A stretch of 64,000 bases of DNA from Halosimplex litoreum (lineage in GTDB: Archaea; Halobacteriota; Halobacteria; Halobacteriales; Haloarculaceae). The stretch is taken from positions 1,611,836 to 1,675,835 of the forward strand of contig NZ_CP065856.1 in assembly GCF_016065055.1 (NCBI RefSeq). Reading direction: 5' to 3'. The notes under the pieces are model-generated. The model saw only the letters and a list, made by a program, of their open reading frames with translations. It was not told the origin of the DNA and did no database searches. Below, in pieces: positions 38,942 to 41,066 of the stretch. The number at the start of each line of letters is the position of its first letter. The stretch's first letter is position 1. A program made the translations under genes and the position numbers.

Positions 38942-39613
38942 ATGAGCCACGAGGGGCCAGGCGAGCCGCCGACCGACCGCGAGTCACCGGTCGGTGCACC
39001 GGTCATCCGCGGCGATCCGAGCGTCACCGGACAGCGACCGGAGGAGGCAGTCGAGTTCGACCCCGACGACCCCGAGAGCCTCGAAACCGCCGCACAGACC
39101 GTCCGACAGTTCGCCAGCGACGCGGCCGGCGAGGCCGACACCGTCTTCATGCTCCGGGGAGCTGCCGCCTGTGCCGCCCTCGTCCGCGGCGAAGGATCGT
39201 ACAAGGCCGCCGCCGAGCGCGCCGGCGGCGAGGCCACCGTCGCGTTCATCCGCAAGTGGTCCCGCGTCCACGACCTGCCCCGCTCGATCCGCAAACACGT
39301 CGCGATGGGCGAGATCGCCCCGACCGCCGCGAAACACATCGCCCGCGTCGCCGGCCCCGCTCGCCTCCAGCTCGCGTGGGCCGTCCTCGACCACGACATG
39401 ACCGTCCGTCAGGTCCGCTCGGTCGCCAGCGACATCAACGACGGCACCGCCGTCGAGGATGCCCTCGTCACCGAGGGGATCACTCTCGGCGAGCTCACGA
39501 TGGAACTCCCACCGGGGATCTACCGGGAACTCCGCAGACGCGCCGCGCTGGAGGACGTCGAGCCCGACGAGATCGTCGCAACCGCGCTCGAAGGGCGCTT
39601 CGAGCAAGGCTGA
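38942..39613 (+). CDS. DUF7119-like protein with ParB-type HTH
   Basis: The 223-residue protein has an acidic N terminus, a helical region, and a core (about 95-175) reading AAERAGGEATVAFIRKWSRV, then HDLPRSIRKHVAMGEIAPTA and LAWAVLDHDMTVRQVRSVAS, strongly like the DNA-binding HTH of ParB/KorB proteins without their N-terminal CTPase domain. A C-terminal PPGIYRELRRRAALEDVEPDEIV segment resembles a ribbon-helix-helix. It lies just before the tRNA-Lys gene. It is probably DNA-binding; role unknown. Confidence 0.75.
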   Translation: MSHEGPGEPPTDRESPVGAPVIRGDPSVTGQRPEEAVEFDPDDPESLETAAQTVRQFASDAAGEADTVFMLRGAAACAALVRGEGSYKAAAERAGGEATVAFIRKWSRVHDLPRSIRKHVAMGEIAPTAAKHIARVAGPARLQLAWAVLDHDMTVRQVRSVASDINDGTAVEDALVTEGITLGELTMELPPGIYRELRRRAALEDVEPDEIVATALEGRFEQG

Positions 39614-39618
39614 TCGTA

Positions 39619-39630
39619 AGTACTTAATCG
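39619..39630 (+). promoter_or_regulatory. TATA box of tRNA-Lys
   Basis: AGTACTTAATCG lies 25-36 bases before the tRNA 5' end. A 7-bp hairpin (CGTCTCC...GGAGACG, 39632-39652) lies between it and the tRNA and could end the preceding gene's message. Confidence 0.55.
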
Positions 39631-39654
39631 CCGTCTCCCTCATTCGGAGACGAA

Positions 39655-39766
39655 GGGCCGGTAGCTCAGTCAGGCAGAGCGTCTGGCTTTTATCGTGACT
39701 ACGCGTTCGATCCGCGTGGTCGCGGGAGAGACCAGATGGTCGGGGGTTCAACTCCCTCCCGGCCCG
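39655..39766 (+). tRNA. tRNA-Lys (TTT) with 38-nt intron
   Basis: The acceptor stem GGGCCGG (39655-39661) pairs with CCGGCCC (39759-39765), with discriminator G39766 and no encoded CCA. The D stem is GCTC/GAGC and the T stem GGGGG/CCCTC with TTCAACT. The anticodon stem is TCTGG/CCAGA (39682-39686/39732-39736) and the anticodon TTT is at 39689-39691. An intron (39693-39730) sits at the canonical 37/38 position, as cut by the archaeal splicing endonuclease. Introns in archaeal tRNA-Lys are unusual enough to note. Confidence 0.92.
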
Positions 39767-39865
39767 CTTTTGCGACGAACGGACGTGAAGAGCAACGCGG
39801 CCAGTGGGAGTCGAACCCTGGAAGGCACGCGCAGCGAACGGACGTGAGCGAGCATGTCTTCCTCC

Positions 39866-39886
39866 GGTTCGACTCCCCCCGGCCCG
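39866..39886 (+). repeat. att-like duplicate of the tRNA-Lys 3' end
   Basis: GGTTCGACTCCCCCCGGCCCG repeats the last ~22 bases of the tRNA (39745-39766) with one substitution and one deletion, 120 bases downstream. Between them an inverted T-arm-like fragment (GGGAGTCGAACC, 39805-39816) and two copies of CGAACGGACGTGA also occur. Such 3'-end duplications mark integrase-mediated insertion at tRNA genes. A low-GC gene starts 46 bases later. Confidence 0.65.
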
Positions 39887-39931
39887 TTTCCTTCCCGTAT
39901 TATTTAATTTACACTATGTTAATACACCGGT

Positions 39932-40360
39932 ATGGGAGAGAGTCATCCGAAGGCGCAGGGGCAAAAGAGTGAGGCAGCAGTGCTGCATGAATTAGTTCAG
40001 CGGAATCTCACAGTTCTGGAGCCCTTTGGAGACAACGAGCGGTATGACTTCGTGGTGGAAATCGACGACTCGTTCCAGCGTTTCCAGGTGAATACAGGAC
40101 GGTTGGAGAACGGACGAGTTCAGTTCGAGACTCGGAGTTCCGGTACTCTCACACGAAAGGTCAAAAAGGAGGGATACGAAGGAGATGCGGACTATTTCGC
40201 AGTCTATTCTCCGGATCTAGAGGAGACGTATGTTGTCTCGGTCGCCGAGGCACCTGAAACGACAATGGGGCTTCGCGTAGAGGAGACAGAAAAGTCTTCA
40301 CCGAACATCAACTGGGCAGAAGACTATCACATAGATACCTGGCGTGAGGAAGTTGCTTGA
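39932..40360 (+). CDS. PD-(D/E)XK nuclease-fold protein (group I intron-associated type), probably horizontally acquired
   Basis: The 142-residue protein begins with GQKSEAAVLHELVQRNLTVL, then PFGDNERYDFVVEI and FQVNTGR, the pattern of PDDEXK proteins found with group I introns or integrated elements. Asp39 and Glu43 fit the acidic active-site positions, but Asn54 replaces the lysine of the expected QxK. The gene has about half GC, far below its neighbours, and an AT-rich promoter (TATTTAATTTACAC). It follows a duplicated tRNA-Lys 3' end, consistent with a remnant of an integrated element. Confidence 0.72.
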   Translation: MGESHPKAQGQKSEAAVLHELVQRNLTVLEPFGDNERYDFVVEIDDSFQRFQVNTGRLENGRVQFETRSSGTLTRKVKKEGYEGDADYFAVYSPDLEETYVVSVAEAPETTMGLRVEETEKSSPNINWAEDYHIDTWREEVA

Positions 40361-40481
40361 GGAGATTGGGAAATCAGTAGCGGACCGCAGATAGACCCAC
40401 TAAACCGACTTAAATCACGGAAATTCTCCCTCACGGACGACCCGTTATAATCGGTCACGACTCCTGGAGTTGCGTGCAACC

Positions 40482-41066
40482 ATGAACTTCGACATCCATA
40501 GACTCCGCAGCGCCGTCGGGACCGACACGGTCGAATCGGCGAGCAGGATCGTCTTCGGGATGGCGGCGCTCGCGGTCGTCCTCGCGCTGGCGTCGCTGCT
40601 GCCCGGACTCGACCTGCTGATACCGCGGACGTCCGTGACACTGGCCGCAGTCGTCGGCGCACTGGCGACACTGGCCGCCGTCGCGCTGTTGCTGTATCTC
40701 GCCCGCGCGCTGGCAGCGCTGACTCGACTGGCACTCGACGGGCCCGCCGAACTCGTCGAACACCTCGCGTCGGTCGCCCACTGGACGGTCGTCCTCGTCG
40801 CCGTGCTGGTCGCCCACGCCGGGCTCGCACCGGCCGTAGCGCCGTTGATCGAAGGCGCCCGCTGGGCCTACGACTCGGCGTTCCTCCTCGCGGCACTGGG
40901 ACCGCTCGCGGCCGTCGCCGCTCGCCTCGCCGTCGCCGTCGACCCCCTGGCCGAGTTGGTCGCCGACGGCGTCGCCGGGACCGCGAACGACTCCGAAGCG
41001 GAGCCCCGAGGAGCGGACGAGGACACCGCTGGACCGAACCCCGACGGTGACCGGTCGGCGAACTGA
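40482..41066 (+). CDS. Membrane protein with four to five hydrophobic segments
   Basis: The 194-residue Ala/Leu-rich membrane protein ends in an acidic polar tail. ATG 40482 follows a CGTTATAATCGG TATA box (40442-40453), which gives a leader of about 10 bases. I recognise no motif. It precedes a second small membrane protein on the same strand. Confidence 0.75.
   Translation: MNFDIHRLRSAVGTDTVESASRIVFGMAALAVVLALASLLPGLDLLIPRTSVTLAAVVGALATLAAVALLLYLARALAALTRLALDGPAELVEHLASVAHWTVVLVAVLVAHAGLAPAVAPLIEGARWAYDSAFLLAALGPLAAVAARLAVAVDPLAELVADGVAGTANDSEAEPRGADEDTAGPNPDGDRSAN

Follow-up and report, generated by a model that had tools for sequence, protein, structure and literature searches.

A PDDEXK_5 homing-endonuclease homologue beside an intron-bearing tRNA-Lys gene of Halosimplex litoreum, and the linkage of its family to haloarchaeal tRNA genes

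The gene for the homing endonuclease I-Ssp6803I lies in a group I intron that interrupts the tRNA-fMet gene of a cyanobacterium (PMC1995217). In collaborative homing, a free-standing endonuclease and an ORF-less group I intron converge on one site (PMC3984707). Linkage to a tRNA gene is known for the phage homing endonuclease SegB (PMC13096335), and in archaea endonuclease genes occur inside BHB introns (PMC6125680). With respect to archaeal tRNA introns, a review reports the proposal made by Randau and Soll in 2008 that these introns protect tRNA genes from viral integration, and it calls the mechanism of tRNA intron transposition in Thermoproteales still unknown (PMC4090602).

The window, i.e. 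the whole analysed stretch of 64,000 nucleotides from the genome of H. litoreum (G000, a single contig of 4.16 Mb with 45 tRNAs), harbors a tRNA-Lys(UUU) gene with a small intron and, downstream on the same strand, a gene of the PDDEXK_5 nuclease family. The corresponding features are:

39655-39766, plus strand: tRNA-Lys(UUU) gene including its intron (Rfam RF00005, 57.6 bits; ARAGORN with introns)
39689-39691, plus strand: anticodon TTT (sequence; ARAGORN)
39693-39730, plus strand: 38-nt tRNA intron at the canonical place directly after base 37 (ARAGORN with introns; position read on the sequence)
39887-39931, plus strand: AT-rich leader of the nuclease gene, likely its promoter (sequence)
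39932-40360, plus strand: PDDEXK_5 (I-Ssp6803I-like) homing-endonuclease homologue of 142 amino acids, catalytic Lys54 replaced by Asn (profile, structure and residue comparison)
40361-40376, plus strand: right edge of the insert, placed approximately where sequence similarity to genome G002 returns, near 40376 (from the right part of the alignment only)

When the window is aligned with G002, the result is unreliable to the left of about 40376, and the right edge alone was used. The tRNA gene is missing from the default ARAGORN output and was called with its 38-nt intron, at the canonical position 37/38, in the intron-aware run. The predicted fold of 39658-39770 shows a hairpin prolonging the anticodon stem. 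Most relatives lack this intron.

The protein encoded downstream matches the PDDEXK_5 profile (PF11645) with an E-value of 6.6e-32 and 110.8 bits, against a curated cut-off of 26.1. Its best solved relative by sequence is I-Ssp6803I (PDB code 2OST, E 1.7e-5), and the four best Foldseek hits for its predicted model (mean pLDDT 84.8) are all chains of the same entry (best E 7.5e-10, TM 0.77). PADLOC yielded a single hit, named homing endonuclease (E 7.2e-7), and the NCBIfam profiles gave no hit for this protein. The active site was scored against the catalytic set of I-Ssp6803I, which we take to be E, D, Q and K. At these positions the window protein displays Glu14, Asp39, Gln52 and Asn54; the set is thus incomplete (K54N), the lysine being retained in 142 of 146 homologues. 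Because the catalytic lysine is replaced by asparagine, the window nuclease is probably inactive. It is a family member by descent and probably no active enzyme, and the locus as a whole probably represents a late-stage remnant in which the intron has been kept and the nuclease is dead.

The gene was described in the initial annotation as a low-GC gene behind an AT-rich stretch, and this description is borne out by the AT-rich composition of 39887-39931 and by a GC content of 52% in the gene, compared to 69% in the flanks more than 500 nt away. A similar difference is found for the 146 homologues, with a mean GC content of 56% in the gene and 65% around it. Elsewhere in the window, the GC content drops from about 0.68 to about 0.58 between approximately 45250 and 50000. 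Open reading frames with two tandem PDDEXK_5 matches are seen at L067, L075, L077 and L064 (genomes G099, G114, G153 and G178); tRNA-Pro is the neighbour of three of them, and at L064 no tRNA was found.

Relatives of the nuclease were found in at least 129 of 293 genomes of the order. Four listed second-domain rows (G114, G099, G153 and G178) were left out of this count, their first domains having been counted already. Throughout, genomes are scored as being without the gene if they have no match among those listed (E up to 1e-8); G127 is scored in this way although it holds a degraded Asp-type copy. Among the 146 haloarchaeal loci examined from the matches listed, 134 possess a tRNA gene on the same strand upstream within 1.5 kb, and in 128 of them this gene lies within 500 nt (median 204). 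As estimated from 45 tRNAs in 4.16 Mb, the chance of encountering one upstream tRNA within 500 nt is about 0.3%. The tRNA is found on the downstream side instead at seven loci, in some cases overlapping the open frame. An antisense tRNA neighbour occurs at none of the 146 loci, and at five, one of which is near a contig end, no tRNA was found.

The partner is tRNA-Asp(GTC) at 80 loci, tRNA-Pro(TGG) at 22, tRNA-Asn(GTT) at 21 (one relabelled by eye) and tRNA-Lys(TTT) at 11, the minor partners being Arg-TCT, Leu-TAA and Ser-TGA (two each) and Gly-TCC (one). The protein tree was calculated from 145 rows, with one short row left out, the five tRNA-free loci unlabelled and the partner labels of L065 (Arg) and L101 (Asn) corrected by eye beforehand. 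On this tree the partner label changes seven times, the minimum for eight groups, compared to a mean of 57 for shuffled labels, and the Lys clade has an SH-aLRT support of 99. Two loci deviate in their surroundings: L061, one of the five tRNA-free loci, encodes a protein sharing 57% identity with that of the window, and no tRNA was found within a 5.4-kb stretch there, and L062 carries a truncated Lys-type gene on the opposite side of the tRNA. An intron-bearing tRNA-Arg(TCT) begins where the nuclease frame stops at L065 and L066; ARAGORN had called the one at L065 Gly(ccc), and it was relabelled by eye.

Relatives are also present in viruses, where 12 loci were opened from 27 records with a match. 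A same-strand tRNA is close by in 11 of these 12; no adjacent tRNA was found at the locus of HATV-2. In HSTV-4 (L298, 2390-2926) and HRTV-15 (L304, 890-1426) the PD-(D/E)XK nuclease gene is located 2 nt behind tRNA-Asn(GTT), and in phage My1 a tRNA-Ile overlaps at the nuclease gene. Several of these phages carry tRNA clusters, and in their case the adjacency is weaker evidence. The haloviruses HSTV-4 and HRTV-15 are possible vehicles for transfer; the search for plasmids as carriers of the nuclease gave no match.

The presence of the tRNA-Lys intron was compared with that of the Lys-type gene over the 293 genomes, of which 19 fit the intron pattern, 209 the intronless pattern and 65 neither. 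Three of the latter (loci L055, L056 and L058), where a Lys-type gene and a slightly longer intron are seen, were scored as intron-bearing from their loci, and the remaining 62, which have no Lys-type gene, were set aside. The intron is present in all 11 genomes with a Lys-type gene and in 11 of 220 scorable others, 209 being intronless (Fisher 3.6e-13, ignoring kinship). Five genera hold the Lys-type gene, and each of them also includes an intronless genome without it. Within the genus of the window, G000 displays the intron with a decayed gene, G002 and G007 the intron without the gene, and G006 neither; the nuclease gene is absent from the same locus in the latter three genomes. These states are the stages expected of a homing cycle. 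The 11 genomes with the Lys intron and no Lys-type gene are read here as cases of gene loss, a pattern that is equally open to other causes.

A second co-occurrence is observed for tRNA-Asn. Its intron is present in 13 of 21 Asn-type genomes (12 by pattern, G009 by eye). With 15 genomes out of 50, which had no match, and three carriers with other stems set aside, and with G009 kept outside the Fisher table, it is found in 12 of 17 scorable gene carriers versus none of 14 genomes without the gene. These 14 non-carriers are devoid of an Asn-type gene, and some hold other types (an orphan in G064, Asp-type genes in several). A match of G128 to the Asn intron pattern was judged to be due to chance, because an intronless match lies elsewhere in this genome. 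Five Asn carriers have an intronless tRNA with the standard stem: in three of them the nuclease is damaged, by a stop, a K to E and a Q to E change, and two keep all four catalytic residues. The corresponding damage among Asn intron carriers is 0 of 13. By eye, L086 and L092, both of the Asn type, display an intronless tRNA-Asn with an unusual anticodon stem, followed as the next tRNA downstream by one with a CAT anticodon and an intron.

Syntenic loci lacking both elements are available for direct comparison. The left flank of L063 is 93% identical over 997 nt to that of L358, which does not have the 36-nt intron; behind an identical 36-nt 3' exon, L063 contains 580 nt with the gene and L358 67 nt. 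The same difference in intron (34 nt) and gene is seen between L054 and the syntenic L340 (92%; genus g64, which is Haloferax by a full protein match of L280 to L052). The empty loci were chosen as intronless, and the absence of the gene, not that of the intron, is the test in these comparisons.

The commonest partners, tRNA-Asp (80 of 146 loci) and tRNA-Pro (22 of 146), contain no intron. In 32 of the 80 Asp-type loci (e.g. L098, L111, L137 and L165) the nuclease is located between two complete, mostly identical tRNA-Asp genes, and such paired genes are also present in genomes scored as being without the nuclease gene. One of these genomes, G127, retains a degraded Asp-type nuclease gene with a tRNA-Asp gene on either side (L356, 1480-1737). 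Altered anticodon arms of tRNA-Asp as a means of protection were not found, the same two arms dominating with and without the gene. In the case of tRNA-Pro, 15 distinct anticodon stems occur in 22 carriers versus five in 30 non-carriers (30 loci compared, of 40 matching genomes), a difference reached in 5 of 20000 permutations, ignoring kinship; among 50 within-genus pairs of carrier and non-carrier, 8 have the same stem. From these sequences, a protective role of changed tRNA-Pro stems is suggestive only.

Our best reading of the family is that its members are free-standing homing endonucleases that have each specialised in a particular tRNA gene. Their distribution is patchy: the gene is present at a given site in some genomes and missing from it in close relatives, as is characteristic of such enzymes. 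For the Lys and Asn branches, where an intron-bearing target is linked to a free-standing nuclease, the best reading is a collaborative-homing arrangement in which the nuclease has spread together with a small, protecting tRNA intron; the Asp and Pro types do not display this trait. We consider it likely that the window gene derives from a free-standing PDDEXK_5 homing endonuclease specialised on tRNA-Lys(UUU), with the intron transferred along with it and protecting its carrier. Cleavage and its precise position are inferred here, as are protection and the direction in which transfer took place, and a target spanning the intron insertion site would follow from the example of I-Ssp6803I only. 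According to this proposal, the nuclease would find its target in an intronless tRNA-Lys gene, recognising the palindromic anticodon arm and cutting it. Repair would copy the chromosome carrying the interrupted tRNA gene and the linked nuclease gene, and intron and nearby gene would thereby move together. The carrier would be protected because the intron splits the recognition site, and the intron would be harmless because the host tRNA-splicing endonuclease takes it out of the RNA. After fixation the nuclease would decay first and the intron would persist. Against this reading it has to be considered that vertical descent at fixed loci would also match nuclease clade to tRNA.

An unlikely but not negligible alternative is that the nuclease homes to, or persists at, the tRNA locus by virtue of co-transcription or a downstream target, and that the intron is an independent passenger whose coincidence with the gene stems from shared ancestry. 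The intron-free Asp and Pro partners agree with this, the same-strand bias would suit co-transcription, and the intron and gene counts ignore kinship. However, the association is found in two different tRNAs, Lys and Asn, and for Lys within five genera; the syntenic loci lack intron and gene together; and the nuclease is damaged in three of five intronless standard-stem Asn carriers but in none of 13 intron carriers.

The sequence between the tRNA-Lys gene and the nuclease gene contains a set of repeats, which had been the starting point of the initial annotation:

39745-39766, plus strand: tRNA 3' end, T-loop through acceptor end, repeat copy 1 (sequence)
39776-39788, plus strand: CGAACGGACGTGA, copy 1
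39799-39817, plus strand: inverted T-arm-like piece, left arm of the trailer hairpin (repeat comparison; fold)
39835-39847, plus strand: CGAACGGACGTGA, copy 2
39866-39886, plus strand: tRNA-Lys 3' end, repeat copy 2, right arm of the trailer hairpin (sequence; fold)

The repeats are real. The copy at 39866-39886 is identical to the tRNA-Lys 3' end (39745-39766) in 20 of 21 bases, with one single-base gap, the inverted piece at 39799-39817 and the stretch 39866-39884 show 89% complementarity, and two exact copies of CGAACGGACGTGA start at 39776 and 39835. The trailer is predicted to form a strong hairpin, beyond chance (fold z -4.8). What the initial annotation did not contain, apart from the intron and the identity of the gene, is the genome-wide nature of these trailers. 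When 30 of the 45 tRNA genes of G000 were tested, including the Lys gene of the window, a copy of the gene's own 3' end (at least 18 of 22) was found downstream of 14 and upstream of none. The 14 copies match their own tRNA with a mean of 20.9 of 22, against 14.7 for the ends of other tRNAs on the same stretch, and across different tRNAs they cover the region from T-loop to acceptor end. The arrangement is the same at these 14 genes, namely an inverted T-arm piece, a spacer with words such as GCGAACGGAGTGAGCGAGC and the copy of the own 3' end. Owing to the one-base gap, the Lys copy of the window reaches only 16 of 22 in an ungapped comparison and is not counted among the 14. Examples of G000 loci with 3'-end copies are L310, L321, L322, L326, L328, L331 and L336, as well as 39767-39886 of the window.

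By eye, the tRNA-Lys 3'-end copy is also present in G002, G006, G007, G009, G010 and G020, and it was not seen at G023 (L008); the nuclease gene is absent at the tRNA-Lys loci of all seven genomes. Repeats and nuclease gene are separate features, because the copies follow other tRNAs as well as the tRNA-Lys of gene-free relatives. They may represent a structured or conserved RNA trailer, or tiny non-autonomous insertions duplicating a target of about 22 bp. A known RNA family for the trailer hairpin was not found, the tRNA being the only listed Rfam match in 39500-40500, and the literature matches listed contained nothing on point regarding tRNA-trailer repeats. Passages of one source (PMC3119063) deal with PATE palindromes and with partial copies of tRNAs found at prophages, and not with these trailer repeats.

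These observations bear on the interpretation given in the initial annotation, a past integrase-mediated insertion at the tRNA 3' end that has since decayed, in which the 3'-end copy would be an att repeat and the nuclease a passenger. Two observations speak for it, namely that the tRNA 3' end is directly repeated and that a low-GC gene neighbours the tRNA, and its more general part stands: the gene is a member of a mobile DNA family, is absent from three relatives of the same genus and has an active site that looks decayed (K54N). The integrase mechanism itself is very improbable. Inspection of the ORF list revealed no integrase-like or integrase-sized gene beside the nuclease, which is itself a homologue of homing endonucleases and whose clade matches the tRNA partner; the repeats do not bracket the gene, because both copies are situated on the same side, to its left; and copies of the own 3' end follow 14 of 30 tRNA genes. 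In the comparison with relatives, G002, G006 and G007 by eye carry the repeat without the gene. Repeats found in all relatives without any element history had been named as a refutation in favour of a local duplication; the outcome comes close to this, with G023 (L008) showing no such copy by eye.

Little probability is likewise left for a nuclease kept by the host or for defence, acting for example on tRNA or on viral tRNA genes and retained beside its cognate tRNA, since its wide distribution (at least 129 of 293 genomes), its isoacceptor-specific clades and the viruses that carry tRNA genes with nuclease relatives are set against its patchy presence with empty syntenic loci, the relatives in the viruses themselves, a closest fold that is that of a homing endonuclease, a PADLOC hit that is itself named after such an enzyme, and an intron that, once spliced out, would leave the mature tRNA unprotected.

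Returning to collaborative homing as the preferred reading for the Lys and Asn branches, the linkage of these nucleases to tRNA genes, seen in many haloarchaeal genomes and in some viruses and partly accompanied by a tRNA intron, may reflect one way in which archaeal tRNA introns spread. If the nucleases cut intronless and spare intron-bearing tRNA genes, the small introns would be both cargo and shield of a selfish element, and annotation as PDDEXK_5 would predict which tRNA is targeted in haloarchaea and haloviruses as well as in some bacteriophages. Only tentatively do we extend this to haloarchaeal tRNA introns at the canonical position in general, which might be footprints of attack by tRNA-specific PDDEXK_5 nucleases: a spliceable insertion in the anticodon loop that blocks cutting would be selected and would travel with the linked nuclease gene from species to species, partly on viruses with the same pairs of tRNA and nuclease. 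A mechanism by which archaeal tRNA introns are gained and transferred would thereby be provided. A connection between tRNA introns and PDDEXK nucleases is absent from the titles and abstract beginnings of the open-licence literature matches listed.

The window gene resembles I-Ssp6803I in family, in fold and in its association with a tRNA gene and the intron of that gene. I-Ssp6803I, however, resides inside a bacterial group I intron, whereas the window nuclease is located outside the tRNA, beside a 38-nt archaeal intron, and cannot be intron-encoded because this intron is too short. The endonucleases of BHB introns are likewise associated with archaeal introns, but they are carried by the intron, while the window nuclease lies outside its tiny tRNA intron. 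Phage SegB shares with the present family the association of a homing endonuclease with tRNA genes; it reportedly belongs to a different nuclease family and involves no tRNA intron. The proposal of Randau and Soll, as reported in the review, has an intron shield a tRNA gene from a mobile element, as is suggested here; there the threat is viral integration, whereas here it would be a tRNA-specific nuclease linked to the intron. In collaborative homing, finally, a separate nuclease gene and an ORF-less intron go together, as they appear to do here; the cases described for it concern phage genes and group I introns converging on one site, whereas the present ones concern archaeal tRNA genes with a putative shared target site and with small, presumably protein-spliced introns.
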